Positions 44,698 through 64,000 of a DNA stretch of 64,000 nt are shown one piece after another. Origin of the DNA: Algibacter mikhailovii (GTDB lineage Bacteria > Bacteroidota > Bacteroidia > Flavobacteriales > Flavobacteriaceae). Location: assembly GCF_014651495.1 (NCBI RefSeq), contig NZ_BMWZ01000003.1, forward strand, positions 372,001 through 436,000, read 5' to 3'. Within the stretch, counting starts at the first letter, position 1; every line of letters begins with the position of its first letter. Position numbers and translations under genes: made by a program. The notes under the pieces are model-generated. The model made no database searches. It was not told the origin of the DNA and saw only the letters and a list, made by a program, of their open reading frames with translations.

Positions 44698-45045
44698 ATG
44701 AAAACAAAGTTTAGTAGAATGCTTACGCTACTTTTAGCGTTTGTTGTGCAACTCACATTTGCACAAGAAAAAACTATTACAGGAACAGTTTCTGATGAAG
44801 CTGGGCTACCACTGCCTGGCACTACTGTTCTGGTCAAAGGTACTAGTAACGGTACCTCAACAGATTTTGATGGAAATTATTCAATTCAAGCAAATACTGG
44901 AGATATTCTAGTTTTTAGTTTTGTTGGATACTCAACCCAAGAAGTTGCGGTTGGTGCATCAAGCACAGTAAATGTATCATTATCAGAAGATGCTGAGTCA
45001 TTGGAAGAAGTGGTTATTACTGCTCAGGGTATTAAAGCTAAACCA
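44698..45045 (+). repeat. SusC N-terminal module, copy 1
   Basis: The first 110 or so codons, plus the leader GACTAATTCAAATA before the ATG, closely resemble 50087-50434, while the rest of the two genes is much less similar. Within the module, stretches such as VLVKGTSNGTSTDFDGNYSI are identical at protein level. Confidence 0.75.
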
Positions 45046-47916
45046 AGATCTCTTAGTTATGCTGTAGAATCTGTAGACTCTGGAGATATTACCAATGCAA
45101 GAGAGACCAATGTTGTATCGGCATTAAGCTCAAAGGCTGCTGGTGTTCAAGTAACAACATCTTCTGGTTCTGTAGGTGCTTCGGCAAACATTAGAATTCG
45201 TGGTAATACATCTATTACGCGTTCTAATTCACCTTTATTCGTTGTAGATGGTGTTCCAATCAACAATGACTCTTACAGTGAAGATCCAACCCAAAGCAAT
45301 AACAACTCCAGTTTAGGGGGATCAGATTTCTCAAATAGAGCTATTGACATTAATTCTGCCGATATTGAATCTGTAAATATCCTAAAAGGAATTGCTGCAC
45401 AAACACTTTATGGTCTGCGTGCTGCTAATGGCGTTGTTCTTATTACAACTAAAAAAGGTAAACAAGGAAAAACAAGAGTCACTTTAACAACTTCGGCAAG
45501 TTTCTCTGACATAAACAAAGGACCAGATTTACAAAAAACTTATGCCCAAGGTAGGCATAATCCTGATGGTAGCGGACTTCAATATAGAGGCCCAGAAACT
45601 TTTGAAGGAGATTCATGGGGTCCTTTAGTCTCTGGCTTAGAATACGACGGTGATACCTCTTACCCATTTCATAGATATGGGGCGCTCGTGCCAACTGGAA
45701 CAGGAAACGGAAGAGCTGCTGAAACCTATGATAACTATGATTTTTTCAAAACAGGTGATGTTTTTGATGTTAATTTATCAGCTAGTGGAGGCACAGACAA
45801 AGTGAATTATCGCGCTTCCATGGGTAAACTTGTTCAAAATGGTGTAGCGCCTAACGAAGAATTTATAAGAAAGACTTTTAGAGTCGACTTAGAAGCTAAA
45901 CTTTATGAAGACTTAACCTTAGATGCTTCGGCTCAATATTCAAATTCTGGTGGTTTTAGAGTCCAAAGAGGATCTAATATCTCCGGTGTAATGCTAGGTT
46001 TACTGCGTAATACGCCAACCTTTGATATGGGTAATGGAAAAAAAGGACAAGCAGCAGCTGATGATCCTTCATCTTACTTCTACGACATTCCAGGTTCAGA
46101 GTTACCTGGACACAGAAGTTACCGTGATGGTATATACAACAACCCCTACTTCACGGTAGCAAGAAACTCAAATACTGACGATGTAAATCGTCTTATCGGA
46201 AAAATGGGTTTAACATATGACATTAATGATTGGTTGATATTTAAAACCTCTGCTTCCATTGATAACTGGGCGGATACTAGAAAAATTGGCTTTGATATAC
46301 TAGATGCCAGTTTTGGCAATGGACGCGTTATTAATGATGTGATCCAAAATCAAGATGTTAACTGGAATGCGTTGCTTTCTGCTTCTAAAGATTTAACTGA
46401 AACTCTTGGCCTAACGGCAACTATAGGTTATGACGGATTTTACACCAAGAATAACAGACAAACCGTTATTGGCGATGGCATGGCTATTCCTGGATTCTTC
46501 AACCTATCAAATGTTAGCACAACTCAGGCATCAGAAATAACCAATAGAAAAAAACTAATCGGTGCTTTTGCTACAGCCACATTAAGTTTTAATAATATGC
46601 TATTTTTAACACCTTCTTTTAGAAATGACTGGACATCTACCTTACCTGAAGGAGATAACACTTTTCAATCGTATTCTTTAGGTGGTAGTTTCATTTTTAG
46701 TGAAGTCTTAAACACTAATTTTATTAATTATGGTAAACTAAGGGCATCATATGGTAAATCAGGAAACGACGCCCCAATATATGCAACAGCCACTAATTTT
46801 AATGGCACGCTAGCTAGTGGAGATGGCTTTATTCAAAGTGTAACTTTTCCAGCTTATGGCACAGTATCATTTGAAAGAGATGGACGAAAAGGAAATCCTA
46901 ATCTAGTACCTGAAACAACTACAGAATTTGAAGTTGGTATTGAATTATCCATGTTAGATAGCCGCTTAAAGTTTGACGCTACCTATTACAACAAAGAAAC
47001 CTCAGATCAGATTGTACCTATTGATGCAGTACCATCATCTGGATTCGTTGAAAGATACACTAACATCGGCCGAATCTCGAATAAGGGTGTAGAATTAACT
47101 CTTGGCGGCACTCCGGTAAGAACTGATGATTTTAACTGGGACATCAATGTAAACTTCACCACCTATGAGAACGTTGTTGAAGAATTAACTGAAGGACTTG
47201 AAAGTTATGTATTAAATGGATTCTCAGGAACAAGTTCTCGTGCCGTAGCCGGTGAATCTTACGGCTCTATTTATGGTGCTAGATATGCCAGAAATGACGA
47301 AGGCACTATTTTAATTGATGACGATGGCTATCCTGCACTAGCAACTACTGACGGCGTTATAGGTGATCCAATTCCAGATTTCTTAATGGGCATAAGTAAT
47401 ACATTCTCTTACAAAAACTTAAGCCTTTCTGTGCTTCTAGACATTAGAGAAGGTGGAGATGTTTGGTGTGGCACCTGTGGTATTCTTGATTATTTTGGTG
47501 TTTCAACCGAAACCTTGTTAAGAGATCAATCAACGATATTCGAGGGTATAGTGCAATCAACTGGTGCTCCAAACAATCAAGTAGTACCTTACTCAGACCC
47601 TACAATAAGTGAAGGTAACAACTTTTGGAGACGATACGGTTTTGGTGATGTAGATGAAGGCAACGTTCATGACGCCTCTTGGTTCAGGTTAAGAGAAATA
47701 ACTTTAACCTATAGCTTGCCGAGTAAATTACTCGACGGAACTTTTATTGACGGCGTTTCAATATCAGCTTACGGTAGAAACCTCTACTTAAGTACCAAAT
47801 ACCCGGGCGTTGATCCAGAAACGAACTTAACAGGAGACTCTAATGGTATCGGATTAGATTACTTTAATAACCCAAATACTAAGAGTTACGGCTTTGATAT
47901 TAAATTAAATTTTTAA
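44698..47916 (+). CDS. SusC/RagA-like TonB-dependent transporter 1
   Basis: This is a 1072-residue outer membrane protein of the SusC/RagA family, which imports large ligands captured by a partner SusD lipoprotein with TonB energy. Order of parts: signal peptide 1-22; carboxypeptidase-regulatory-like beta-sandwich about 25-95 (GTVSDEAGLPLPGTTVLVKG and FDGNYSI); TonB-box-like EEVVITAQG; plug domain about 115-235 with PLFVVDGVPINND and SADIESVNILKGIAAQTLYG; then the 22-strand barrel ending KLNF. Its N-terminal 110 residues closely match the second SusC at 50087. susD follows after six bases. No neighbouring enzyme hints at the ligand. Confidence 0.95.
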   Translation: MKTKFSRMLTLLLAFVVQLTFAQEKTITGTVSDEAGLPLPGTTVLVKGTSNGTSTDFDGNYSIQANTGDILVFSFVGYSTQEVAVGASSTVNVSLSEDAESLEEVVITAQGIKAKPRSLSYAVESVDSGDITNARETNVVSALSSKAAGVQVTTSSGSVGASANIRIRGNTSITRSNSPLFVVDGVPINNDSYSEDPTQSNNNSSLGGSDFSNRAIDINSADIESVNILKGIAAQTLYGLRAANGVVLITTKKGKQGKTRVTLTTSASFSDINKGPDLQKTYAQGRHNPDGSGLQYRGPETFEGDSWGPLVSGLEYDGDTSYPFHRYGALVPTGTGNGRAAETYDNYDFFKTGDVFDVNLSASGGTDKVNYRASMGKLVQNGVAPNEEFIRKTFRVDLEAKLYEDLTLDASAQYSNSGGFRVQRGSNISGVMLGLLRNTPTFDMGNGKKGQAAADDPSSYFYDIPGSELPGHRSYRDGIYNNPYFTVARNSNTDDVNRLIGKMGLTYDINDWLIFKTSASIDNWADTRKIGFDILDASFGNGRVINDVIQNQDVNWNALLSASKDLTETLGLTATIGYDGFYTKNNRQTVIGDGMAIPGFFNLSNVSTTQASEITNRKKLIGAFATATLSFNNMLFLTPSFRNDWTSTLPEGDNTFQSYSLGGSFIFSEVLNTNFINYGKLRASYGKSGNDAPIYATATNFNGTLASGDGFIQSVTFPAYGTVSFERDGRKGNPNLVPETTTEFEVGIELSMLDSRLKFDATYYNKETSDQIVPIDAVPSSGFVERYTNIGRISNKGVELTLGGTPVRTDDFNWDINVNFTTYENVVEELTEGLESYVLNGFSGTSSRAVAGESYGSIYGARYARNDEGTILIDDDGYPALATTDGVIGDPIPDFLMGISNTFSYKNLSLSVLLDIREGGDVWCGTCGILDYFGVSTETLLRDQSTIFEGIVQSTGAPNNQVVPYSDPTISEGNNFWRRYGFGDVDEGNVHDASWFRLREITLTYSLPSKLLDGTFIDGVSISAYGRNLYLSTKYPGVDPETNLTGDSNGIGLDYFNNPNTKSYGFDIKLNF

Positions 47917-47922
47917 AAAACT

Positions 47923-49296
47923 ATGAAAACAATAAAATATATATTAAGTGTTTTAATACTTAGCGCAATGGTGTTTTCATGCACTATCACTAATGTTAAT
48001 GTAGACCCTGATAACCCATCAGCAGACAAAGTAAATGCGGGTGCTATTTATCCGGGAATGATATCACAAACACATAGAAATTCTGTAGCACTCGTTGGAA
48101 GGATTGCTGGACTAATTACACAACAATATGATGGTTTAGACGCCCAACAGATTGCCTATGCTCAATACCTTATTGGTGAAAGTGATATCGATGACCTTTG
48201 GGATTTTGGCCTCTATGGAGCAGGGGCATCAAAAGATTGCTTTGTTATAATCTCAAACACTGAAGGTGATGTAAGTGCCTTAGCCAAACTCTATATGGCC
48301 GCAAACATGGGAGTAACAACAAGCTGTTGGGGCAATGTTCCTTATTCTGAAGCTTTTCGAGGTGATGGCGAGACTCCGATAGCAAGTCCTACCTATGACG
48401 ACCAAGAAAGTGTTTATGCTGCTATTCAAAACCTGCTAAGCGAATCTATTGCTGAAGGCGTTGCGTTTGGAATTGGTGAGTTTTATGGCACCGGAGGAGG
48501 TGGAGCTGATTGGGTTAAAACAGCTCACGCCTTAAAAGCACGTTATTACATGCATCTGACTTCTGTAAGCTCAAGTGCTGCAGCAAGTGCCTTAGCTGAA
48601 GCTGAGCTAGCATTTTCAAGTAGCGCCGAGCAACCCGATTTTGTTTATAGCTTACCAGCCCAAAATGCCAATCCTTTCTACCTGTTTGACAATGATAGAC
48701 CAAGTACTTTAGGTATAGGTACTACTTTAAAAGAAATGATGGTTGGAGATCCAAGGTTACCGTTATATACTACTGATGGCGAAGATTTCGCTGGTGTTCC
48801 TGGTTTATTTTGGGGTCAAGCAGACTCACCTACCCCTTTAATTTCTTATTGGGAAGTTAAATTTATTGAAGCTGAAGCTTTGGTAAGAACTGGTGGAAGT
48901 GATACTGATGCGTTACAAGCAATGAAAGATGCTGTGGGAGCAAACATGCAATATATTGGGGTGGACGCAGCAGATATTACAACATATGTAAATGCCTTAA
49001 CGCTTGCTGGTACCGAAGCAAACAAAATTGAAACAATTATCAATGAAAAGTACAAAGCTTTATACGGTAATGCACCTATTGAAACATGGGTAGACTATAG
49101 AAGAACAGGTTTTCCAGCTTTAACACCAAATCCAGATGCACAGTCTTCGTTAAACCCATCTAAAATAATACCTAGAAGGTTTTTATACCCTATTACCGAA
49201 CGTACAACAAATAAAACAAACTACGATGCAGCCATTTCTGCACAAGGGGGGCATTTATTGGATGTAGATATGTGGGCTTTTCCAAAGTCTGATTAA
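47923..49296 (+). CDS. SusD/RagB-like lipoprotein 1
   Basis: SusD-like proteins cap the SusC transporter and capture ligand at the cell surface. The 457-residue protein has a lipoprotein signal ending in MVFSC (Cys20), the helical TPR-type fold with IAYAQYLIGESDIDDLWDFGLYG near 85, and the family-typical SYWEVKFIEAEALVRTGG near 306-323. It resembles the SusD-like_2 subgroup. The gene starts six bases after the susC stop and a terminator follows its stop by 33 bases, so susC1-susD1 is a two-gene operon. Confidence 0.93.
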   Translation: MKTIKYILSVLILSAMVFSCTITNVNVDPDNPSADKVNAGAIYPGMISQTHRNSVALVGRIAGLITQQYDGLDAQQIAYAQYLIGESDIDDLWDFGLYGAGASKDCFVIISNTEGDVSALAKLYMAANMGVTTSCWGNVPYSEAFRGDGETPIASPTYDDQESVYAAIQNLLSESIAEGVAFGIGEFYGTGGGGADWVKTAHALKARYYMHLTSVSSSAAASALAEAELAFSSSAEQPDFVYSLPAQNANPFYLFDNDRPSTLGIGTTLKEMMVGDPRLPLYTTDGEDFAGVPGLFWGQADSPTPLISYWEVKFIEAEALVRTGGSDTDALQAMKDAVGANMQYIGVDAADITTYVNALTLAGTEANKIETIINEKYKALYGNAPIETWVDYRRTGFPALTPNPDAQSSLNPSKIIPRRFLYPITERTTNKTNYDAAISAQGGHLLDVDMWAFPKSD

Positions 49297-49362: not shown

Positions 49363-50086
49363 AATTAACTATGACATCAAGAAAAAAAACACCCTGCACA
49401 TCCACAACCGTATATCATAATCTGAATGTTAGAAGTAATTTTAAAAACTAGAGCATGCACGGCTTACTAAGCTCTTTTCTTAAAACAAAGTGAGTGAGCA
49501 AATAAAGCCACCAGATATCAAGTAAACACCTTCTTTTAATTCCTTAATTCGCTTTTTTTGCTAAGAGAAGATTTTAACTTTAAACCAATAGCCTTCAAGT
49601 ATATAATTTATTCGCCACTCATCCACCTAATATATCAGCTACCCCTTAAGATCTAACCAGAATAATAAAATTTCACACCAAATTATTAAGCCTTTTATTT
49701 AAATTAACTTTGAATGTAACATAAACACGCATTACCAAAGGAAGAAAAACCACTATCACAAACTATCCTTAGTTATTTATCAGAAATAATTAAAATTTAG
49801 AAAATCAGTGCTGTTATTTGGTGAATTTATTTCCAATTATAACATTTTTCAAAGTTCTGCGGTTATTTTGCTATTCGCATTTTACATTTTTCTACCAAAA
49901 CCTTCCATTAGAACTAATCGAAATTCAAAAAATTTAAAGGATATTTTTTGAGAAACTACAAAATCCCAATAAAAAATGCTCTATTTCCTGAAAATTTTCA
50001 CTTAAACCAATATTTTAACTATTGTTTGTTGTTTTTTTAACTTTTTATTTTCACTTTTGGCATCGACTAATTCAAATAATTATAAA
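49363..50086. other. Long gene-free AT-rich region between the two susCD pairs
   Basis: About 720 bases carry no open frame of useful length and no similarity I recognise. The last 60 bases hold the candidate promoter and leader of susC2. The middle is low-complexity AT-rich sequence, possibly a regulatory region, a remnant of a lost regulator gene, or an unannotated small RNA; none of these is visible directly. Confidence 0.6.
50029..50059 (+). promoter_or_regulatory. Candidate promoter of susC2
   Basis: TTG (50029-50031), 20 bases and CACTTTTG (50052-50059) fit the Bacteroidota pattern with one mismatch in the -7 box. The leader to ATG 50087 is about 20 bases. The corresponding region upstream of susC1 shares the sequence TTTTTAACTTTTTATT before its TACATTTA. 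Confidence 0.45.
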
Positions 50087-50434
50087 ATGAAAACAAAGTT
50101 TAGTGGAATTCTAACGCTATTACTAGCGTTTGTTGTGCAACTATCGTTTGCACAAGACAAAACTATTTCAGGAACTGTTTTGGATGATACAGGCTTACCC
50201 CTGCCCGGAACAACTGTCTTAGTAAAAGGCACATCAAATGGAACATCAACAGATTTTGATGGAAACTACTCAATACAAGCTAATACTGGTGATGTACTAG
50301 TGTATAGTTTTGTTGGGTATTCATCAAAAGAAGTAACAGTTGGTGGTTCAAACACGATTAACGTTACACTGGTGGAAGATGCCGAAGCTCTTGAAGAGGT
50401 AGTTGTAACCGCCTTAGGTATCAAAAAAGAACAA
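50087..50434 (+). repeat. SusC N-terminal module, copy 2
   Basis: This is the counterpart of 44698-45045, including the leader motif GACTAATTCAAATA at about 50065-50078. It covers the signal peptide, the carboxypeptidase-regulatory-like domain and the TonB-box-like stretch. Confidence 0.75.
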
Positions 50435-53224
50435 CGCCAGTTGGCTTATGGTACCAGTCAAGTTAAAGCTGCCGAATTAACACGAGCAAGAGAAGCTAAC
50501 ATTACTAACTCTTTACAAGGTAAAGTTACTGGTGTACAAATTACCAACTCTGGTGGTAACTTAGGTGGATCTTCTAAAGTTATTATCCGTGGTGTTTCTT
50601 CACTTTCAGGAAGAAACAATCCGTTATGGATTGTTGATGGCGTTATGATTAATGACTCACAAACAGTTTCTGGAGATGCTAATAGAATTACCGGGAACAG
50701 AGATTTTGCCAATGGTGCTTCTGTAATCAATCCTGATGATGTTGAATCTATTAACGTTCTTAAAGGAGCTGCAGCAACGGCGCTTTATGGTTCACGTGCA
50801 TCAGCAGGTGCTATTGTTGTAACCACAAAACGTGGTAAAGAAGGTGCTGGACCAACAGTGAGCATTAATTCTTCTTTTAGATTTGATAATTTATTCAGAA
50901 CACCTGACTACCAGCAAGAATACGCCGGAGGTACTGCTGGCAGATTTAATGCAGGTTGGGGTGCCGATTGGGGACCAAGAATAGCTGGTCAAACGGAGGA
51001 AAACCTTGCAATTACTGGTGCAACTGGCCCTTTAACTGCAGTAAAAGATAATGGTGTAGGTCATTATTTCCAAACAGGTCAAACAGCAATTAATAACTTT
51101 GCTATTTCTGATGGTAGTGAAAAATATGATTACCGTTTAAGTGTAACTAATTTAGATCAACAAGGTGTTTTACCAGGTGCTGAATTAGATAGAATTACCG
51201 TAAGTTTAAATTCAGGTGTGAGACACAGTGAAAAACTTGAATCTCGTTTCAATGTTCAGTATACCAAAACAAAAACAAGAGGTACTGGTGCTTCAGGAGC
51301 AAATGATCCTAACATTTTTAGTTTATCATCTTTTAGTAGTACAGTAGACCCAAGAAACTATATTCCTTGGAAAGATGCTTCTGGCAATCAAATTAATAAA
51401 TTATCAGACAATCAAGGTATCGAATCTAATAACCCATATTGGTTACGTTATGAAAACTCAAACAACAGAGATGACGATAGAGTTTTTGGTAATTTCGAAA
51501 TTACATACAAACCATGGAAAGACTTTGCTTTTACAGGAAGAGTTGGTGCTGATATGTTAGATGATAGAAGACTTATTGAAAACAGCAAAGGAACCGTTGG
51601 TAGACTACAAGGTGATTTTGTAAGTGATGAAATTAGACGTTTTGAAGTCACTTCTGACTTTATTGCAAACTATAATAAAAATTTATCTGAAGATTTAAAT
51701 TTAAATGTCGTTGTCGGTTCACAGTACAATCAACGTATATTCCAAAGACAAACGATTACTGGTGTTAATTTATTAATTCCTGAATTGTTTAGTCCATCTA
51801 ATGCAGCACAAGTAATTGCAGAAAGAGATTATGCTGAGTCTCGAGTAATTGGTCTTTATGGATCAGCCGAATTAGATTATAAGAACTTTTTAACACTTAC
51901 CGTTACAGGTAGAAATGACTGGTCTTCAACATTACCTAAAGACAATAATAACTACTTCTACCCTTCTGTTGGTGCTGCGTTTGTATTTACCGATGCGTTT
52001 AACCTTGAAAGTAATTGGTTGTCATTTGGTAAGTTACGTGCAAGTTGGGCACAGGTTGGGAATGATACCGCGCCTTATCAATTAGATTTTAGATTTTTAC
52101 CCGAAGTGACTGCAGATGGTCAATATGGTTTAGATTTAAATTTCCCTATGAATGGTGCCTTAGCTTATCGTGCTACCACTACCATTCCACCAGAAGGCTT
52201 AAGACCTGAACAACAAACGTCTTATGAAGTTGGATTGGAAATGAAATTTTTTCAGGGACGATTAGGTTTTGATTTTTCTTACTTTAATACTAGAAATGAG
52301 GATCAAATTCTTAATGTACCAATACCTGAGTCTACTGGATTTGGATTTAATACACAAAACGTAGGTCGTGTAGATAATAAAGGTTTTGAAATTGCCTTAG
52401 ACGCTATACCTGTTCAAGCAGGTGACTTCACTTGGAGAACAAACATCAACTGGTCTAAAGTAGAACAAGAAGTAGTAAGCTTAACGTCTGGTGTAGAAAG
52501 AATAACAATTGCCTCTGGTTTTTCTAGTGTACAAGTTATTGCAGAGCCAGGTAAACCATTTCAACTTAGTGCGATTCCTTACCTAAAAGATGAAGCCACA
52601 GGTAGACCAATTATTGATCCAAGTACCGGTAGAAGACAAGCTGGCGCCGTTCAATCTTTTGGATCAGTACTTCCAGATTGGACAGCAGGCTGGGTTAACA
52701 ACTTTAGCTATAAAGGTTTTAACTTATCGGCAACTATAGATGCCAAATGGGGTGGTGTTATGAAATCATCTACTGTTGAAGATTTACAACAACAAGGACT
52801 GGTAACTGAAACCTTAAGAAATAGAGAAGGTAGCTTCATTGATACAGCAGGTGTACTTGATAACGGGGATGGTACATTTAGAGAGAACGATGTGCCTGTA
52901 TTAAACGCAGAAGACTTCTGGGCTAACTCTCTTGATGGTAATGGCGGAAATGTTTCAGAACCTTATATTTTTGACGCCTCTTTTGTTAAGTTTAGAGAAT
53001 TGGCTATTTCATATACGTTTAACAACAGACAACTAGGTGAAGGTTTCCTACAAGGTCTTACAGTAGGTATAGAAGGAAGAAACTTAGCGTTACTTTACTC
53101 TAAAGTGCCACATATTGACCCAGAAGCAAGTTTATTTGGATCTGGTGCTGATGGTTTTGGAGTTGAAAGAGCAAGTGTGCCATCAACAAGAAGTGTTGGT
53201 TTCAATGTAAGATTAACGTTTTAA
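50087..53224 (+). CDS. SusC/RagA-like TonB-dependent transporter 2
   Basis: A second SusC-like transporter. I choose ATG 50087 (MKTKFSGILTLLLAFVVQLSFAQ), giving 1045 residues; the earlier TTG lies within the promoter. Parts: signal peptide 1-22, carboxypeptidase-regulatory-like domain about 25-95, TonB-box-like EEVVVTALG, plug about 115-240 with PLWIVDGVMINDSQT and DDVESINVLKGAAATALYGSRAS, then a large barrel ending VRLTF. The ALGIKKEQRQLAYGTSQV stretch after the TonB box is typical of peptide- or unknown-ligand SusC proteins but does not define a substrate. susD2 follows by 12 bases. Confidence 0.95.
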   Translation: MKTKFSGILTLLLAFVVQLSFAQDKTISGTVLDDTGLPLPGTTVLVKGTSNGTSTDFDGNYSIQANTGDVLVYSFVGYSSKEVTVGGSNTINVTLVEDAEALEEVVVTALGIKKEQRQLAYGTSQVKAAELTRAREANITNSLQGKVTGVQITNSGGNLGGSSKVIIRGVSSLSGRNNPLWIVDGVMINDSQTVSGDANRITGNRDFANGASVINPDDVESINVLKGAAATALYGSRASAGAIVVTTKRGKEGAGPTVSINSSFRFDNLFRTPDYQQEYAGGTAGRFNAGWGADWGPRIAGQTEENLAITGATGPLTAVKDNGVGHYFQTGQTAINNFAISDGSEKYDYRLSVTNLDQQGVLPGAELDRITVSLNSGVRHSEKLESRFNVQYTKTKTRGTGASGANDPNIFSLSSFSSTVDPRNYIPWKDASGNQINKLSDNQGIESNNPYWLRYENSNNRDDDRVFGNFEITYKPWKDFAFTGRVGADMLDDRRLIENSKGTVGRLQGDFVSDEIRRFEVTSDFIANYNKNLSEDLNLNVVVGSQYNQRIFQRQTITGVNLLIPELFSPSNAAQVIAERDYAESRVIGLYGSAELDYKNFLTLTVTGRNDWSSTLPKDNNNYFYPSVGAAFVFTDAFNLESNWLSFGKLRASWAQVGNDTAPYQLDFRFLPEVTADGQYGLDLNFPMNGALAYRATTTIPPEGLRPEQQTSYEVGLEMKFFQGRLGFDFSYFNTRNEDQILNVPIPESTGFGFNTQNVGRVDNKGFEIALDAIPVQAGDFTWRTNINWSKVEQEVVSLTSGVERITIASGFSSVQVIAEPGKPFQLSAIPYLKDEATGRPIIDPSTGRRQAGAVQSFGSVLPDWTAGWVNNFSYKGFNLSATIDAKWGGVMKSSTVEDLQQQGLVTETLRNREGSFIDTAGVLDNGDGTFRENDVPVLNAEDFWANSLDGNGGNVSEPYIFDASFVKFRELAISYTFNNRQLGEGFLQGLTVGIEGRNLALLYSKVPHIDPEASLFGSGADGFGVERASVPSTRSVGFNVRLTF

Positions 53225-53236
53225 TATTTAGATAAA

Positions 53237-54661
53237 ATGAAAAAAATATATTCAATAATAATATTATCAGCAGTTTTTACTCTGAGTTCTATTTACTCAT
53301 GTAGTGATAACCTTGATATAAATACAGATCCGCTCGCAGCGACATCTGCCGATCCTAATGCTGTTTTACCATTTGTGTTTGGTGAATATACAGCACGGAA
53401 AGTGTCTGAATTAGGCACAAGAATTTGTGACGTTTCACAGTACATATCTAACACCTATAACAGTCCTAATAGAGGTGCTGTAAGTGGCACTTTATCAGGA
53501 AATACTTGGGGTGTATGGTATGTGGGTATGCTAGGGAATTTATCTTTAGTAAAAGCCGATGCTGCCGCTGCTGGATCTTCAAGTAATAATGTAAATGGTA
53601 TTGCTACAGCTTTGATGGCAAACACCTTTCTTGAGTTGACTGCCCTTTGGGAAGACGTGCCTTTTACTGAAGCCTTAGACGGGGTTAACTTTCCACAACC
53701 TAAATTTGATGATCAAGAGACGGTGTTAAATGGTGTAGTTGATTTATGTGATGAAGCCATGGCTTTAATAGATTCTCACAATACTGATGGTGAATTTCAA
53801 ATCACACCAGCAAGTGATATGTACTACGGTGGTGATATTGCAAAATGGCGTATTTTTGCTAATTCGTTAAAGTTAAGAGCACTTATGATGCTAAGAAGCG
53901 GTGGTGCTAATGTTGATGCAAAAATTAATGAAACATTAGATCAACCGTTAATGACTTCTAATGACCAAACAGCTTATGTTAATTATGTGGGTACACCTGG
54001 TGCGCAGAATGCAATGTTGACAATTGTTACTGCATTTTTTGGACCAGATAATGAAAGCCAAAATGTTTTTGGACCTGGAGATCCAATTGATGAGCTTTTA
54101 AGTGGTTCTGGGGACCCTAGATGGGATTTATGGGTTGCTAGAAATGATTTAGACGCTCCTGGAAATGACATCTTCCCAGACCCAGAAACTTCTGTTCTAA
54201 GCAATAACATCATTAGAGCTGATCTTCCTGACGTTTTAATGTCTCCAGATGAAATTGATTTGTACAAAGCAGAACTTGCATTAGCAGGATTCGCAAAAGC
54301 AGGATCTGCTGATACCAATTACAGAAATGGCGTAAGAAACTCTATTAAATGGTGGGGACAAGATATTCCTGGCGTTTTAGCTACAGTTTCTGATGCTGAT
54401 ATTGATGCCTATGTAAATGGATTAGCTGCACCAACAGCTAATGATATCTATAATGAGCAATTTTTAGCGGCGTTTAACAGACCAATTCTAGCATGGAATC
54501 ATGTAAGAAGAAATAAAATACCTGTCTTAGATCCGCCACCTGCAACTAGTATATCTACCATTTTAAAACGATTTACTTATCCACCAGATGAAATTGGTAA
54601 CAACCCAAATACACCTGCGAATAAGCAAACAGACGTACCAATGTGGTTTGAAAACTTATAA
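53237..54661 (+). CDS. SusD/RagB-like lipoprotein 2
   Basis: This is the ligand-binding partner of the second SusC. The 474-residue protein has a lipoprotein signal ending in SIYSC (Cys22) and then NLDINTDPLAAT, a start usual for SusD-like_2 proteins. Typical blocks include MANTFLELTALWEDVPFTEAL near 125-145, YYGGDIAKWRIFANSLKLRALMML near 195-218, and the C-terminal KRFTYPPDEIGNNPNTPAN. It starts 12 bases after susC2 and is followed after 13 bases by a small lipoprotein gene, indicating a three-gene operon. Confidence 0.93.
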   Translation: MKKIYSIIILSAVFTLSSIYSCSDNLDINTDPLAATSADPNAVLPFVFGEYTARKVSELGTRICDVSQYISNTYNSPNRGAVSGTLSGNTWGVWYVGMLGNLSLVKADAAAAGSSSNNVNGIATALMANTFLELTALWEDVPFTEALDGVNFPQPKFDDQETVLNGVVDLCDEAMALIDSHNTDGEFQITPASDMYYGGDIAKWRIFANSLKLRALMMLRSGGANVDAKINETLDQPLMTSNDQTAYVNYVGTPGAQNAMLTIVTAFFGPDNESQNVFGPGDPIDELLSGSGDPRWDLWVARNDLDAPGNDIFPDPETSVLSNNIIRADLPDVLMSPDEIDLYKAELALAGFAKAGSADTNYRNGVRNSIKWWGQDIPGVLATVSDADIDAYVNGLAAPTANDIYNEQFLAAFNRPILAWNHVRRNKIPVLDPPPATSISTILKRFTYPPDEIGNNPNTPANKQTDVPMWFENL

Positions 54662-58474: not shown

Positions 58475-59359
58475 CTAAAACTTAATATTTAAAACCTCTT
58501 GCCTCAGTATATTACTCTCATAAAATTCAACTACCCAATTATCCCCTTTTTTAAAAATAATGGCGCTTTTACCTTCAACTAAAAACACATCCTTTAGGTT
58601 TGTCTTTCTTACTTTATAAAGCACCTTAGGGGTACTATCAACGAGTTGATAACCGTTCTCTATAGCTTGGGCATACAATACTTTATTAAACCCTTTTGTT
58701 TCAGAACTCGTAGGCGCTTTAGATTCATTTACAACAGCGGCAGTAGTAACTGCCGCTGCAGGTACAGCAATTGCAGCACCTGATGGCGATGTTCCCGGGC
58801 TACTAACAACCCCTTGATTTTTTTCGCTTTCTAACTGTTGGATTTGTTGCTTTAATTCTTTTATTTCTTCTGATTCACTGTCCGCTGCTCCTGCCGTAGC
58901 CGATATGGCCAGAGCATTATCACTTGGCGCATAGGCGTAATTAACGGTCTCTAACGACTCAAAAGCATTTCGTAACGCCTTGGTATACGCCACTTTATAT
59001 TCTTTATCTCTACTCGTGCCAATTTCTGACTCATAAATCAGCTTATCATTACAGTCATTCAAAATAATTTTCAATTTCGTAGTAAACATTCCTGAATCTT
59101 TAAATACATCAGCATTCATGGCTAAACATCTATTACTATTTAAATCTTGAGGATAATCTGAACCTTGCATCAACGCGGTAAACCCATATTTTTCAAATAA
59201 AAATTTGGACAATGAATTTAATTGATATTGGTCATTCTCCTTTAAAAAGTCATACTTGTTTGGAACAATGACATACTTATAATCATTCACACTCGATTGA
59301 GAAAACAAGGATGTTATTAAAAAACATGTCATCAAAATGGTAAAAATATTCGTCTTCAT
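58475..59359 (-). CDS. Uncharacterised secreted protein
   Basis: I do not recognise this 294-residue protein beyond general resemblance to Flavobacteriaceae conserved hypotheticals. It has a signal peptide (about 1-20, ending SLFSQ). Residues 25-145 form an alpha/beta-looking domain with VIVPNKYDFLKENDQY and a conserved-looking LNDCNDKLIYESEIGTSR. A coiled-coil-like Glu/Gln/Lys segment and a low-complexity Ala/Val/Ser/Pro linker (about 165-220) lead to a C-terminal beta domain ending VLNIKF. It overlaps the preceding DUF5723 gene by four bases (ATGA), so both are translated together. A role in the envelope with that protein is plausible. Confidence 0.7.
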   Translation of the reverse strand: MKTNIFTILMTCFLITSLFSQSSVNDYKYVIVPNKYDFLKENDQYQLNSLSKFLFEKYGFTALMQGSDYPQDLNSNRCLAMNADVFKDSGMFTTKLKIILNDCNDKLIYESEIGTSRDKEYKVAYTKALRNAFESLETVNYAYAPSDNALAISATAGAADSESEEIKELKQQIQQLESEKNQGVVSSPGTSPSGAAIAVPAAAVTTAAVVNESKAPTSSETKGFNKVLYAQAIENGYQLVDSTPKVLYKVRKTNLKDVFLVEGKSAIIFKKGDNWVVEFYESNILRQEVLNIKF

Positions 59360-60768
59360 TTTTTATTAAAAATATAGTTAAACCCTAACTGTAAAGATAA
59401 ACCTTCTGCATTATAAATGTTTTCATATTGCAAAAAATTATCAGCCATTACATAAAACCCAAAACCACTTAATTGTGCAGCTACTCCCAAGCCTAAATTA
59501 TAAAAAGAATAGGAATCTAGTGTATAGGTCCCTTTTAAACTTAAACCCTCAAATAATTTCCTATAATAATATACGGTAAGCGCCATTTGAGGCTGCTTTG
59601 GTCTACTTATGGCATACAACTGTGCTCCCACTGCATTTAAATATCCACTATCTTCTGTAGTGCAATCGCAATCTTTTTTCTTTTTCTTTCCAAAAGTATA
59701 ATTAAGAGAGCCATTAAATTTAATTGGGCGCCATGTAGTATATTTAGTGCCTGTAGTGTCCACATCAAATAAGTCTTCAAAATCCTCTTTCAAGGCGTCC
59801 CAATAATCCTGAGCAGATTGCCCATTAGCAACATCTGGAAAAAGGGGATTAATACCCTCAAACACATAATTTCCATTAACGACATAATTTTCAACATCTT
59901 TAGAATGGCTAATAAAACCAACATCCAACACACTCCCATCAAGTCGCCACTGATCTGTGATATTATATGTAAACCCTACATCAAACCCAAGGCCTAAATT
60001 ACCACCAAAAAAGGCTCGCTTACTTATTTCTTTTAGGTCCTCGTTAAAACCTGAATTATCATCACTAGTTAAACTGGCAATCCCAGAGGTTCTAACCTGC
60101 ATATCTAAATTAAAAATATGTTCGTAAATATTATTAGTACCCCGACGTGTGGTAAAACTGCCCTTATTTTTAGTTGCATCAATATCAACAACACTAGAAT
60201 ACAACTTGCCTCTTATACCATAATTAAAACGGCTGTTAACTTTTTTATTATAGCCTAAATGAAATACCGAAACCACTTCTGCCCTAGCACTTAAATCACC
60301 GGCATTAAAAACCCTATTTATATTATTTTGGTTGCCTTCTAAGGCTAACTCAATATAATCGGTAGGAATATAACTTATGACATCAAGCTCTTGATAAACA
60401 CCAAAACTTAAATATTCTGTTTTTTCGAAAGTGTTACCAATAGCAAAACCTCCTGAAAAGACTTCTAACTGCTCGTTAGCACTTAAAAAATCCCTTGAAT
60501 CTGAATTATAAACGACGCTTCTAAATTTTTCATTAAAATTGACCCCATTAGCAGAAAAGAGATCGTATACTGTAGGGCCTGAGGTACCGCCATTAATATG
60601 CACATGAGACAATAAAGGTACTCCAATATACCCCATATTTGACACTTCTGCTCCAGGGTTTAGCAATAAGGATTGTGGAATTTCATTAAATCCATATAAA
60701 ATCTGTTTGTTCTGCGCAACAGAATATACACAGAGAAAAAACAGTAAGTATGCCCTATGCTTTTTCAT
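59356..60768 (-). CDS. DUF5723 family probable outer membrane protein
   Basis: This 470-residue protein resembles DUF5723 proteins, a Bacteroidota group related to PorP/SprF-like and other outer membrane barrels. It has a signal peptide (1-18, ending SVAQ), the opening motif ILYGFNEIPQSLLLNPGAEV near 23-42, repeated amphipathic strands, the KKKKKDCDC insertion near 367 and a C-terminal QLGFNYIFNKK. Substrate and partner are unknown. Four-base overlaps join it to the lipoprotein gene before it and the secreted-protein gene after it. Confidence 0.8.
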   Translation of the reverse strand: MKKHRAYLLFFLCVYSVAQNKQILYGFNEIPQSLLLNPGAEVSNMGYIGVPLLSHVHINGGTSGPTVYDLFSANGVNFNEKFRSVVYNSDSRDFLSANEQLEVFSGGFAIGNTFEKTEYLSFGVYQELDVISYIPTDYIELALEGNQNNINRVFNAGDLSARAEVVSVFHLGYNKKVNSRFNYGIRGKLYSSVVDIDATKNKGSFTTRRGTNNIYEHIFNLDMQVRTSGIASLTSDDNSGFNEDLKEISKRAFFGGNLGLGFDVGFTYNITDQWRLDGSVLDVGFISHSKDVENYVVNGNYVFEGINPLFPDVANGQSAQDYWDALKEDFEDLFDVDTTGTKYTTWRPIKFNGSLNYTFGKKKKKDCDCTTEDSGYLNAVGAQLYAISRPKQPQMALTVYYYRKLFEGLSLKGTYTLDSYSFYNLGLGVAAQLSGFGFYVMADNFLQYENIYNAEGLSLQLGFNYIFNKK

Positions 60769-61328
60769 TCGGCAGCCGCTATCTTGAAATAAAAATTAGA
60801 AGAAGATTGTAATTCAACCCTTCCCGTTATGTCATCAGGAATAGGATCTTCAGCTATCAACCTTAAAGTAAAAACAATTTTTATTGTACTTTTCAAAGCT
60901 AATAACGTGTCCCCCTCAAAGGTCTCGATATATTCTGTAAAGACTTCACTCCCTTCAACAGCAGCCTCTTGTTCAATTGAAAAGCGGTGAACTAAAACAT
61001 CTAAATCATCTAAAAAGTCTACTTGTAAATTAACATCTCTATTCAAAGCATTCTTGCCAAGAAAAACAAATTCAGCTTTTACTAAGTTTTCAACAATAAA
61101 GGTATCTGTAAAGAGGTCTATTATTAAAAATTCCTGAATAATGTCAATTTCGGAACCAGATTCCACAAAGCTAGATGCCGACTCATCAAAAAACACCAAA
61201 CTAGATGACATTACAGGAGTCAACTCCAAATCATTGGCCTGGTCAAAATCAACTTCTTTAACACAAGAAAAAAATAACAAAACCAAAATTAAAGGTAAAC
61301 ATGGCTTTTTTATAGATCTGGGAATCAT
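60765..61328 (-). CDS. Hypothetical lipoprotein
   Basis: This 187-residue protein has no family I can name. It starts with a basic stretch and a hydrophobic segment ending LFFSC, so Cys22 is a likely lipidation site. The mature part is acidic and beta-rich. It begins with VKEVDFDQANDLELTP, a pattern seen in lipoproteins encoded beside DUF5723 genes, and ends NFYFKIAAAE. It overlaps the DUF5723 gene by four bases and follows the yjjG-like gene by 22, so it probably works with its downstream neighbours at the outer membrane. Confidence 0.75.
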   Translation of the reverse strand: MIPRSIKKPCLPLILVLLFFSCVKEVDFDQANDLELTPVMSSSLVFFDESASSFVESGSEIDIIQEFLIIDLFTDTFIVENLVKAEFVFLGKNALNRDVNLQVDFLDDLDVLVHRFSIEQEAAVEGSEVFTEYIETFEGDTLLALKSTIKIVFTLRLIAEDPIPDDITGRVELQSSSNFYFKIAAAE

Positions 61329-61350
61329 AAAATTGAAGGGGCTTAATATG

Positions 61351-62040
61351 TTACAGATACCTTTTTAACGCAGAAAGCGCATCAATTTGTATAACATCCT
61401 CACTAATTTTTGTTTTTCTTGTATCAAAAAACACAACATTCATACCTACATCCATGGCCCCGAGTATATCGGCTTCATAACTATCACCTATCATAATACT
61501 CTGAGAAATATTGGCCTTAGCCGAATTTAATGCATATTTAAATATCTTAGGGTTAGGTTTCTTAACACCTACCATTTCAGAATTAGTTACCGTTTTAAAA
61601 TATTTAATAATATTTGAATTGGTCAATTTTTTATGTTGCACTTCATCAAAACCATTAGTAATAATATGCAAATTATAATTCAAACTTAAATAATCAAGAA
61701 TGTCATGCGTATTCTCAAATAAATAATTGAATGATGTTAAATACGTTATATAATCTTCAGAAAGCTTATAAATAATGTGTTCCTCTATTTTATAATTAAT
61801 GGCTTGAAACGTCTCATTGAGTCTTACAAATCTTAAATCTTCCTTTTCAATAAGACCTTCTCTATAGAGTTTCCAATACTTCAAATTAATAGGCTCATAA
61901 TGCGAGACAAACTCTTGGAGGGGCACTTCTATATTATTTAGACTAAAAATTTTTTCAAATGTCAATGCCGAATTCTTATCAAAATCCCAAAGCGTATGAT
62001 CTAAGTCAAAAAAAACATCCTTTATGTTATTAATTTTCAT
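61351..62040 (-). CDS. YjjG-like HAD phosphatase (noncanonical nucleotidase)
   Basis: This 229-residue HAD-superfamily protein has motif I DLDHTLWDFDKNS near 12-24 with the nucleophilic Asp, motif II around HIITNGF (T/N at about 122), motif III with the Lys of GVKKPNPKIF, and motif IV MIGDSYEADILGA near 183. The FDLDHTLWDFD opening matches the YjjG/TIGR02254 group, which dephosphorylates noncanonical pyrimidine nucleotides. The substrate is inferred from the family. The start overlaps the deacetylase-like gene by 11 bases. Confidence 0.85.
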   Translation of the reverse strand: MKINNIKDVFFDLDHTLWDFDKNSALTFEKIFSLNNIEVPLQEFVSHYEPINLKYWKLYREGLIEKEDLRFVRLNETFQAINYKIEEHIIYKLSEDYITYLTSFNYLFENTHDILDYLSLNYNLHIITNGFDEVQHKKLTNSNIIKYFKTVTNSEMVGVKKPNPKIFKYALNSAKANISQSIMIGDSYEADILGAMDVGMNVVFFDTRKTKISEDVIQIDALSALKRYL

Positions 62041-63331
62041 CGACTGAATTTAATATTAAATTAAACAATTCTTTAAAGCCCTTCCATCTCATATCATCAC
62101 CAAAGGTATAATTATGAAAAACAGGAATAAACGAGCCATTTACCTGCTTAACCTCATCAATCATTTCATTTAAAACCTTTTTCTTATCCAGAAGTGATTT
62201 GTGTTTCAGTAAAGCATAATCCATCACTTGATAAGGAAATACCATTAAGGGTGTTTGTACTTCATAATCTAAATCGTAAAATAAAAATGGTGAACAAGAA
62301 CCTGCTCTAAACCCAATTTGATTGACATAGCCCATGGTATAATCTTCCTGAACTTCAAGAGTTATCAAGTTTCTGTAAGCATCAGGTAAATTAAGTTTTG
62401 AAAAAGATTGCCTTGTAGCCTTTAAATTGGTGTTTAAGATTTCCTCCATTTTTATTTTTTCTTTTTTTAATGTTGAGCTATTCTCAATGGCAAGAAAAGA
62501 AACCTTAAGACCAACTCTACAATAATCTCCAACGTGTTTGATAAGAGAAACAAACTTCTTTTTATTTGGATTTATACCTTTATCATAAGTAGAATAATCA
62601 CCAATTAGAAAAAAGAATAGAAATTTGTACTTAGAGTGTCTTTGTCTATTTATAATATATTTAAATGTATCATAGGGATCATGTTTAAACCCTAGCAGAA
62701 CTATAAACCTAAGGTATAAGCTTTTAATTTTTAGTCTAAAAAGGTCTGCCGTGATCCCACCAAAATTACGCATCAAACCTTTTAATTTATAATTATACGG
62801 ACTTGGTACATCTATAACAGGAATAATATTATATGTTCTTTCAGGAAAAACAAATTCTGGAAACTGTTTTTGCAAAGCATCTTTAAATTTATAAGCCCAA
62901 ATATCAACAACAGGTTGATGTAAAAAGCCTTCGTTAAAAGCAAGACTTTCTTTAGCTGAAAACCGTCCGTATTCATCCTTTACATGAGGCAGATATTCTT
63001 CATAACGCGATAGTAAATAGAAAGAAGCCGAAAAAATATCAAAAGGAATGGAACACTTTTCGCCTATATAAAAGAAACACTTTGTAGTATCCCAGGAATG
63101 GACATTAATATCAACATCTCCTAGGCCTTGCTCAAATAAGATATCATGACTCTTAACAAAAAACTCATTACCAAGTTGTTGCTTTGCATAGGACATTTTC
63201 AAACTGTCATGTGCAATAAACTCTTCAATTTTAGCAGTAAAACCAACCTTTATACCCAGTACGCGGGTACAAATATGTTTAAAAACATAATTTAATCTTG
63301 GTGATTTTTTTTTTGTATAAACTAGAAGCAT
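62030..63331 (-). CDS. Polysaccharide deacetylase-like protein (DUF7033 type)
   Basis: This 433-residue protein is annotated by resemblance to Bacteroidota polysaccharide deacetylase family proteins with an N-terminal DUF7033. The N-terminal 180 residues contain IPFDIFSASFYLLSRYEEYLP and VDIWAYKFKDAL. The second half has the NodB-like barrel hints PVIDVPSPYN near 196 and GFRAGSCSPFLFYDL near 345. The usual catalytic Asp-His-His metal motif is not clear: the opening Asp motif is present, but I do not see the standard HSxxH, so activity is doubtful. Its ATG overlaps the radC stop by one base (TAATG). Confidence 0.75.
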   Translation of the reverse strand: MLLVYTKKKSPRLNYVFKHICTRVLGIKVGFTAKIEEFIAHDSLKMSYAKQQLGNEFFVKSHDILFEQGLGDVDINVHSWDTTKCFFYIGEKCSIPFDIFSASFYLLSRYEEYLPHVKDEYGRFSAKESLAFNEGFLHQPVVDIWAYKFKDALQKQFPEFVFPERTYNIIPVIDVPSPYNYKLKGLMRNFGGITADLFRLKIKSLYLRFIVLLGFKHDPYDTFKYIINRQRHSKYKFLFFFLIGDYSTYDKGINPNKKKFVSLIKHVGDYCRVGLKVSFLAIENSSTLKKEKIKMEEILNTNLKATRQSFSKLNLPDAYRNLITLEVQEDYTMGYVNQIGFRAGSCSPFLFYDLDYEVQTPLMVFPYQVMDYALLKHKSLLDKKKVLNEMIDEVKQVNGSFIPVFHNYTFGDDMRWKGFKELFNLILNSVDEN

Positions 63332-64000
63332 TACAATAAGTTTTCATCGGCAAAACTAAAGTATGCATTTTCAGTTATAATTAGGTGATCTAGTACTTTT
63401 ATATCTATACTCAATGCTGCTTTTTTTAACTTTTGCGTAATTAGCTTATCCGGTTCACTGGGCTTTAAGGTCCCAGAGGGATGATTGTGACAAAGAATAA
63501 GACCTGTTGCACCCACCTCTAATGCCATTTTAAGTACGAGTCTAACATCAACAAGGGTTCCAGTCATACCGCCTTTACTTAACTGGTTTTTAAATATAAC
63601 TTTATTGGAATTACTTAGGTAGATTATCCAAAATTCTTCGTGTTGCAAATCACCTAAGATGGGTTGCATCATTTCAAATACAGAAACACTAGACGTAATA
63701 ATTAATTTCTCCATGGCTTTCTCTCCTCTGCGTCTTCTCCCTAATTCTAAAGCAGCAACAATAGTTATTGCTTTAGCCTCCCCAATACCTTTAAAATCCA
63801 TAAGCTGTTTAACAGACCGTTTTCCCAACTCATTAAGGTTATTATTCGTACTCGCCAAAATGCGTTTACATAAAGCTACAGCGCTTTCATCTTTATTCCC
63901 AGATCCTATTAAAATGGCGACCAGCTCAGCATCACTAAGCACTTGCTTTCCTTTATTCAATAATTTTTCACGGGGTTGATCGTCTTGACTCCAATTTTTT
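63331..64000 (-). CDS. radC: RadC family JAB-domain protein (5' end outside the window)
   Basis: RadC-type proteins carry a JAB/MPN metalloprotease-like domain; the role in DNA repair once proposed is not established. The frame continues through the window edge (reading NWSQDDQPREKLLNKGKQ), so the true start lies beyond 64000 and a few N-terminal residues are missing. Visible parts are an HhH-like N-terminal region with LMDFKGIGEAKAITIVAALELGRRR, and the JAMM motif: Glu in the HEEFWIIYLS strand, then LCHNHPSGTLKPSEPD with His-X-His, Ser and Asp. It heads the overlapping minus-strand run. Confidence 0.92.
   Translation of the reverse strand, partial: KNWSQDDQPREKLLNKGKQVLSDAELVAILIGSGNKDESAVALCKRILASTNNNLNELGKRSVKQLMDFKGIGEAKAITIVAALELGRRRRGEKAMEKLIITSSVSVFEMMQPILGDLQHEEFWIIYLSNSNKVIFKNQLSKGGMTGTLVDVRLVLKMALEVGATGLILCHNHPSGTLKPSEPDKLITQKLKKAALSIDIKVLDHLIITENAYFSFADENLL

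Follow-up and report, generated by a model that had tools for sequence, protein, structure and literature searches.

Two 2025 reports on the beta-barrel assembly machinery (BAM) complex of Bacteroidota (PMC12611786, PMC12578637) describe the FadL-family barrel BamG, which binds the N-terminal region of the surface lipoprotein BamH. BamG is reported to be universal and essential (PMC12611786), BamH is reported not to be essential in B. thetaiotaomicron, and BamG2 and BamH2 of that species are said to lie in a putative operon (PMC12578637). The recognition that core BAM subunits include a FadL-like barrel as well as a surface lipoprotein revealed how much had been missing from the picture of the Bacteroidota outer membrane, which is largely built around barrel-lipoprotein complexes. 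Such complexes are already known, and the gene pair described here is another kind, with unrelated sequences. It lies in a window of 64,000 nucleotides from Algibacter mikhailovii (contig NZ_BMWZ01000003.1, positions 372,001 to 436,000 of the forward strand; all positions below are those of the window). Its two genes, both on the - strand, encode a 187-residue lipoprotein (LIPO, 60765..61328) and a 470-residue predicted FadL-superfamily outer-membrane barrel of the DUF5723 family (59356..60768), and are joined by a four-base ATGA overlap between LIPO stop and DUF5723 start (60765..60768, - strand). The gene order on this strand is radC, a deacetylase-like gene, yjjG, LIPO, DUF5723 and a gene for a secreted protein, SEC (58475-63999).

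By analogy with BamG and BamH, we propose, with a probability of about 0.5, that LIPO and DUF5723 form a dedicated outer-membrane complex that would act as a scaffold in envelope assembly or organisation. An earlier reading of this DNA from its letters alone (the sequence-only reading) had pointed to an undescribed system here, and the literature is in keeping with this. A search whose coverage excluded most subscription journals and preprints returned no paper on DUF5723 or PF18990 and none on bacterial DUF4621, BDI_1231, PF15414 or 4H3W, which are discussed below; DUF4621 appeared in a plant paper only.

Pairing of LIPO and DUF5723 within and beyond Flavobacteriaceae

Profile searches for LIPO, DUF5723 and SEC were run on 149 Flavobacteriaceae genomes, evenly sampled from a larger group, at thresholds of E <= 1e-5 for DUF5723 and E <= 1e-3 for SEC and LIPO. 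DUF5723 was detected in 80 of these genomes, LIPO in 77 and SEC in 126. LIPO and DUF5723 occurred together in 76 genomes, and in 73 of these the two genes were no more than 300 bases apart on one strand. DUF5723 without LIPO was found in four genomes (G003, G050, G099 and G161), and LIPO without DUF5723 in one (G112). In this last genome a LIPO-like gene is followed directly by SEC (L139:6193-7686) and DUF5723 is missing, perhaps through incomplete loss of the pair.

A second set of loci came from a scan of named genomes with the family alignment, from which the best 80 of 484 confirmed DUF5723 matches were taken; as the best-kept part of the matches, these loci are biased toward close relatives. 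They include Algibacter, Flavivirga, Tamlana, Kordia and Winogradskyella, and those that were placed on a tree are Flavobacteriaceae. The gene before DUF5723 is LIPO in all 80, with the four-base overlap present in 44. In seven loci (four Winogradskyella, two Flavobacterium and one Nonlabens) the pair lies in a stretch that holds none of the six remaining genes of the compared neighbourhood. In a metagenome-assembled genome of Flavobacteriaceae, DUF5723 is split into two overlapping frames by a frameshift or a sequencing error (L225:7992-9409).

Co-variation between the proteins was measured as partial distance correlation, with the RarA and RadC signal removed, across 64 loci holding all eight genes. 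LIPO-DUF5723 gave the highest value of all gene pairs tested (0.76); the other two pairs of the trio were SEC-DUF5723 (0.59) and LIPO-SEC (0.54), while the remaining pairs with LIPO or DUF5723 reached at most 0.37. For each of the three pairs within the trio, the observed correlation was reached in 0 of 500 permutations. High correlation was also seen between other neighbours (rhomboid-deacetylase, 0.71 partial and 0.92 raw), and distance co-variation is only supportive of the pairing. On a quick tree of RarA and rhomboid, for which 97 loci were thinned to 51, the pattern in which the pair is present or absent takes 10 changes, at least three of which are forced by well-supported branches. Loss of the pair is a simpler reading than gain because the site is identical each time; the change count alone cannot separate the two. 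Among Flavobacteriaceae the pair is an accessory trait; its lipoprotein is mostly short, and its usual place is between yjjG and SEC.

Larger lipoproteins, of 506-705 residues, precede DUF5723 in two further Flavobacteriaceae loci and in four loci of other families in the order. At class level, up to 12 flanking genes were clustered for 40 loci that we chose from about 56 listed, all with DUF5723 frames under 540 residues. One homologous lipoprotein cluster was present in 27 of the 40, in every case at position -1 and in the orientation of DUF5723; the next most recurrent neighbour was found in 7. We then took a large-lipoprotein profile built from 33 sequences to 39 loci that we chose across the phylum, none of which had been used in building it (38 with an upstream gene to test); in 17 of them it matched the gene preceding DUF5723. 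The same profile was positive upstream in 13 of 20 class-level loci chosen from the same listing for their long DUF5723 proteins. When DUF5723 scored at least 170 bits, the upstream gene of class loci was profile-positive in 38 of 43, compared with 3 of 17 inspected below that mark, so pairing follows the closer DUF5723 line; 27 of these 41 profile-positive loci had helped to build the profile. The upstream lipoprotein of one locus (L281) was missed by the profile. In the class survey the lipoprotein family was detected in 116 and DUF5723 in 142 of 149 genomes. At the cut-off of that survey the profile gave no match in the A. mikhailovii genome, because LIPO is too short and too divergent to be reached there.

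The reverse search gave a similar association from the lipoprotein side. Among 150 lipoprotein matches listed, at least 54 stand upstream of DUF5723 genes that belong to the 71 strongest matches from outside Flavobacteriaceae, and 17 of those 71 have no lipoprotein among the matches listed. Twenty loci that we chose from the other 96 listed lipoprotein matches were fetched, and a DUF5723-type barrel lies directly downstream in 16 of them, each at a profile E of 2e-6 or lower; one of the 16, L343, repeats the L317 locus. This suggests that the pair exists in two paralogous lines. In two loci, L032 and L033, two lipoprotein-DUF5723 pairs stand back to back.

Some further genes recur around the pairs. 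Across several families, a kdsA-like gene adjoins pairs in L032:11889-15983, L033:12241-16395 and L035 and lies downstream of the pair in L242, where it was named by eye in all four, and stands at +2 in five of the 20 reverse-search loci (L344, L345, L347, L348 and L353). kdsA acts in the synthesis of 3-deoxy-D-manno-octulosonic acid (KDO); the gene in L032 scored as DAHP_synth_1. A general link of the pair to kdsA or lipopolysaccharide (LPS) was rejected, as kdsA is not among the recurrent neighbours of the 40 class loci. In that same sample, seven loci (L284, L286, L293, L297, L298, L303 and L304) encode a protein of about 900 residues with an N-terminal hydrophobic segment, at a distance of one to three genes ahead of DUF5723, and a gene that looks RNase HII-like by eye recurs in six.

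Predicted folds and the lipoprotein family link

The DUF5723 protein matches PF18990 over the whole profile (352.4 bits against a cut-off of 26.8, E 6e-105). In a Pfam scan DUF5723 was the sole family found, and Toluene_X (PF03349) gave no match at E up to 1. Its AlphaFold2 model (predicted local distance difference test, pLDDT, 81.5; predicted template modelling score 0.79) gave VIA Z scores of 22.8 with CymD (303 residues), 22.5 with TbuX, 22.4 with FadL (329 residues) and 22.3 with TodX. PorV followed at 20.9 and the Bacteroidota BAM entries at 18.5-19.7, and scores fell to 15.6 for other barrels; we take the matching chains of the BAM entries to be BamG. On the strength of this model, we predict a FadL-superfamily barrel for DUF5723. 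A search of the PDB with the DUF5723 profile returned only a helicase (E 1.7).

The mature N-terminus of the barrel (residues 19-39, QNKQ...NPG; 60652..60714, - strand) contains five residues, Q19, N20, K21, N37 and P38, that are invariant in a 58-row alignment, and its position presumably corresponds to that of the FadL hatch and the NPA motif therein. Model confidence is low around residues 9-30. In BamG the N-terminal tail extends through the lateral opening; the alignments of DUF5723 start at model residue 11-23, where the pLDDT is low. At the other end of the protein, a C-terminal OmpA domain was found in four of five long paired DUF5723 members tested; OmpA domains bind peptidoglycan. 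The A. mikhailovii genome itself holds a second DUF5723 with a C-terminal OmpA fusion (L038:6281-8278; G000:C4), and no lipoprotein gene stands before it.

LIPO has a signal peptide, a lipobox with Cys22, a conserved tether and a predicted C-terminal beta-sandwich. The lipobox cysteine is conserved in 57 of 57 aligned relatives, and the tether has the form C-x-x-x-x-D-F-x-Q, with D27 in 56, F28 in 55 and Q30 in all 57 of them. Residues 22-38 (61215..61265, - strand), which begin with the lipidated cysteine, are the best-conserved segment of the mature protein (mean majority fraction 0.66 vs 0.49-0.57 elsewhere) and a candidate tether for docking. At least two acidic residues lie within six positions after Cys22 in 45 of the 57 relatives. 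A figure legend in PMC12578637 gives acidic residues after the cysteine as the rule for surface export, and export of LIPO to the surface would fit.

No Pfam or NCBIfam family, PF15414 (DUF4621) included, matched LIPO at E up to 1. A first hhalign match between LIPO and the large lipoproteins spanned the signal peptide and the N-terminus and weakened once the signal peptide had been removed, and the family link therefore rests on the C-terminal domain. This domain matched the C-terminal domain of the large lipoproteins at an hhalign probability of 94-96% (E down to 3e-9), with at most 1.7 and 0.7 in two control runs of 40 column shuffles. The middle region of the large lipoproteins gave probabilities only up to 5.6%, and the tether, compared within the whole mature chain, 8-12%. 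In addition, when 57 sequences were searched with the large-lipoprotein profile, it picked up the LIPO of the window directly, at 19.2 bits and E 1.2e-6. We define a DUF5723-partner lipoprotein here by a lipobox, a position directly upstream of the barrel and a homologous C-terminal domain, and LIPO has all three. Judged by sequence comparison, LIPO is a small relative of the large DUF5723-partner lipoproteins.

The AlphaFold2 model of LIPO (pLDDT 87) was compared with 986 aligned chains from the Foldseek top 1000. The highest VIA Z belonged to 4h3w (Z 12.0, root-mean-square deviation 3.5, 131 residues), and the next matches were virus capsid sandwiches (Z 10.3). 4h3w is BDI_1231 of Parabacteroides distasonis, a member of DUF4621 (PF15414). 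In one class-level locus, L280, the lipoprotein encoded directly before DUF5723 matches 4h3w at 5e-99 and is itself DUF4621, so a structure for which no context had been known has a close homologue among the DUF5723-partner lipoproteins. DUF4621 is like LIPO both in its structural match and in the gene position of this homologue, and unlike it in that LIPO is half as long and has no PF15414 match. The DUF4621 protein of L280 links to the family through a 27-sequence profile (hhalign 65-66%), a profile search (6.7e-8) and its fold; against the Flavobacteriaceae domain alone hhalign gave no signal (0.3-0.4%), nor did it against the 6-row set. The LIPO profile matched no PDB chain at E up to 10, and the large-lipoprotein profile gave no convincing sequence match among solved structures. 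With these links DUF5723, DUF4621 and the orphan crystal structure 4h3w gain a common context.

A proposed BamG-BamH-like scaffold and the uptake alternative

In the proposed scaffold, LIPO would be exported to the cell surface as the lipoprotein partner of DUF5723 and would dock on the barrel through the conserved tether at its lipidated N-terminus, leaving the beta-sandwich exposed. DUF5723 would then be both anchor and receptor for a surface lipoprotein, as BamG is for BamH, and the role of the complex would lie in envelope assembly or organisation rather than in ordinary fatty-acid uptake. The C-terminal OmpA domain of some relatives would link the same complex to peptidoglycan. LIPO-DUF5723 and BamG-BamH are alike in that each consists of a FadL-superfamily barrel and a dedicated lipoprotein, given the presumed surface position of LIPO, and unlike in that their sequences are unrelated, BamH having been compared only via PDB searches. 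Two FadL-type proteins encoded in the A. mikhailovii genome were considered as possible BamG, and neither matched a PDB chain. Because the pair is accessory whereas BamG is reported to be universal and essential (PMC12611786), the analogy is one of architecture only.

Several observations weigh against the scaffold. The pair is missing from many Flavobacteriaceae genomes (DUF5723 is present in 80/149 and LIPO in 77/149), unlike BamG, which PMC12611786 reports to be universal. The presence/absence label is weakly clustered on the tree, with 28 of 500 shuffles as low. An upstream lipoprotein accompanies few of the DUF5723 members below 170 bits (the 3 of 17 above), and four of the 20 fetched lipoproteins have no downstream barrel. 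At the level of the proteins themselves, a phmmer search of DUF5723 against PDB chains, BAM entries included, found no match at E up to 1, and the mature LIPO tether aligned weakly with the large lipoproteins (hhalign 19-22%). The beta-sandwich is a common fold, and by Foldseek E-value 4h3w ranks 40th, below a lectin, virus coat proteins and other beta-sandwiches. The residual co-variation of SEC with DUF5723 (0.59) makes some functional tie to SEC possible. Finally, a transport role would suit the predicted FadL fold equally well.

This transport role is the core of the main rival, which we consider unlikely on the whole: DUF5723 would be a FadL-type uptake channel that passes a hydrophobic compound via its lateral opening, like FadL or TodX, and LIPO would bind or deliver that compound at the surface, in the manner of SusD with SusC. 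Transport members (CymD, TbuX, FadL and TodX) are indeed the top structural matches of the model, the mature N-terminus and NP motif of DUF5723 are invariant, and patchy presence within the family suits a nutrient system. FadL, TodX and TbuX (PF03349) share the overall predicted fold with DUF5723, with alignments from model residue 18-23; they differ in that DUF5723 has no PF03349 match, comes with a constant lipoprotein partner and, in relatives, is fused to OmpA domains. C-terminal OmpA domains, as carried by these relatives, are unusual for a channel, and no transport or catabolic gene was recognised by eye among the recurrent neighbours in the 40 class loci. The SusC-SusD system is similar to LIPO-DUF5723 in that a barrel and a surface lipoprotein are encoded together. 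SusC is a 22-strand TonB-dependent barrel with a plug, whereas the 470-residue DUF5723 protein is FadL-like and gave only DUF5723 in the Pfam scan, and SusD is helical whereas LIPO is a predicted beta-sandwich.

A wider form of the scaffold proposal can be put forward tentatively, as something we rather doubt than believe. Across the phylum there may be an unrecognised outer-membrane machine with two paralogous FadL-type lines, one being DUF5723 and the other divergent, DUF5723-like and in some loci next to kdsA. The barrels of each line would come with a surface lipoprotein of their own, in most cases multi-domain, and in some cases with a tail that binds peptidoglycan, and would act in outer-membrane assembly or lipid handling. 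If true, this would be a third device of the FadL-lipoprotein type in Bacteroidota, beside BAM and type 9 secretion. The function of both the DUF5723 and DUF4621 families is made testable by one two-gene deletion.

SEC, type 9 secretion and the neighbouring genes

The gene for SEC, a secreted protein of 294 residues (58475..59359, - strand), overlaps DUF5723 by another ATGA, which joins DUF5723 stop and SEC start (59356..59359, - strand), and the sequence-only reading had taken LIPO, DUF5723 and SEC as one functional unit. Two thirds of that unit held up, in that LIPO and DUF5723 occur together in 76/149 genomes, are adjacent in 73 and are jointly missing from 15 of 16 SEC-only loci. The third part did not, and a three-part surface system is improbable. 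SEC occurs with neither LIPO nor DUF5723 in 50 of 126 SEC-bearing Flavobacteriaceae genomes, the kind of independent occurrence that the sequence-only reading itself had named as refuting the unit, and five genomes (G017, G048, G050, G127 and G131) have DUF5723 or LIPO without SEC. Sixteen loci were fetched from the 50 SEC-only genomes and profile-checked for the pair. Fifteen of them lack both LIPO and DUF5723 and run from radC through deacetylase and yjjG to SEC, followed by convergent rarA and by rhomboid; in the sixteenth (G023) SEC is located elsewhere. In G109 the pair still stands behind yjjG and SEC lies 48 kb off, adjoining rarA and rhomboid.

The case for a trio comes from SEC following DUF5723 in 70 of the 75 Flavobacteriaceae genomes holding both, together with the SEC-DUF5723 correlation already given. 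SEC also falls within the fetched stretch in 72 of the 80 named loci, all of which have LIPO before DUF5723, so the gene order exceeds what chance would give. The pair stands without an adjoining SEC in 7/80 named loci, and the survey of gene neighbourhoods that had been suggested for the trio bore out only the LIPO-DUF5723 pair, which recurs in the class and phylum samples, with a SEC profile match within six genes of DUF5723 in 0/40 class loci. The three-gene unit was rejected on these SEC-only genomes, SEC-only loci and SEC-free class loci. SEC is a widely kept protein and not part of the LIPO-DUF5723 unit. It has a conserved N-terminal part containing two invariant cysteines, and a variable linker. 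No confident domain was found in it, the scattered weak Pfam and NCBIfam matches (0.042, 0.012) being far under cut-off, and its profile gave no convincing sequence match among solved structures.

Least probable is a role in the type 9 secretion system, as an accessory or a shuttle resembling PorV: PorV is a FadL-superfamily barrel among the structural matches (Z 20.9) and SprA is present in 139 of 142 class genomes with DUF5723, but the A. mikhailovii genome has a separate PorV gene (1.6e-144 to 6h3i_F), DUF5723 has no sequence match to PorV among PDB chains, and G418 and G476 (both 99% complete) carry DUF5723 with no SprA match, so membership was rejected. A DUF5723 copy of G476 is preceded by a gene that looks lipoprotein-like by eye and is profile-negative. 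G406 also has DUF5723 and no SprA match, possibly because of an assembly gap. In a control set of 14 genomes, SprA was found in 0/14 and DUF5723 in Bacteroides ihuae.

The six-gene layout that the sequence-only reading described was confirmed on the - strand, including both ATGA overlaps and the overlaps of 1 base between radC and the deacetylase-like gene and 11 bases between the deacetylase-like gene and yjjG; yjjG and LIPO are separated by a 22-base gap. The yjjG gene (61351..62040, - strand) encodes a pyrimidine nucleotidase of that family (TIGR02254, 186 bits vs a cut-off of 159.9), the deacetylase-like gene (62030..63331, - strand) a product with DUF7033 (PF23019, E 7e-39), and radC (63331..63999, - strand; RadC family match) is truncated by the window end. 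The genes radC, deacetylase and yjjG are a conserved, resident neighbourhood that stays when the pair is gone. Promoter and terminator scans gave no signal above shuffle level, and a Bacteroidota-type promoter motif pair was absent from the operon.

Over a length of 342 residues the DUF7033 protein (62030-63331) is similar to the model of the VimE deacetylase, at 138 bits and below the cut-off of 440; VimE is an A-LPS sugar enzyme of Porphyromonas. Elsewhere in the window, at 44698-49296 and 50057-54661, two pairs of a large and a medium open reading frame (1072 + 457 and 1055 + 474 residues) are of the size of SusC and SusD.

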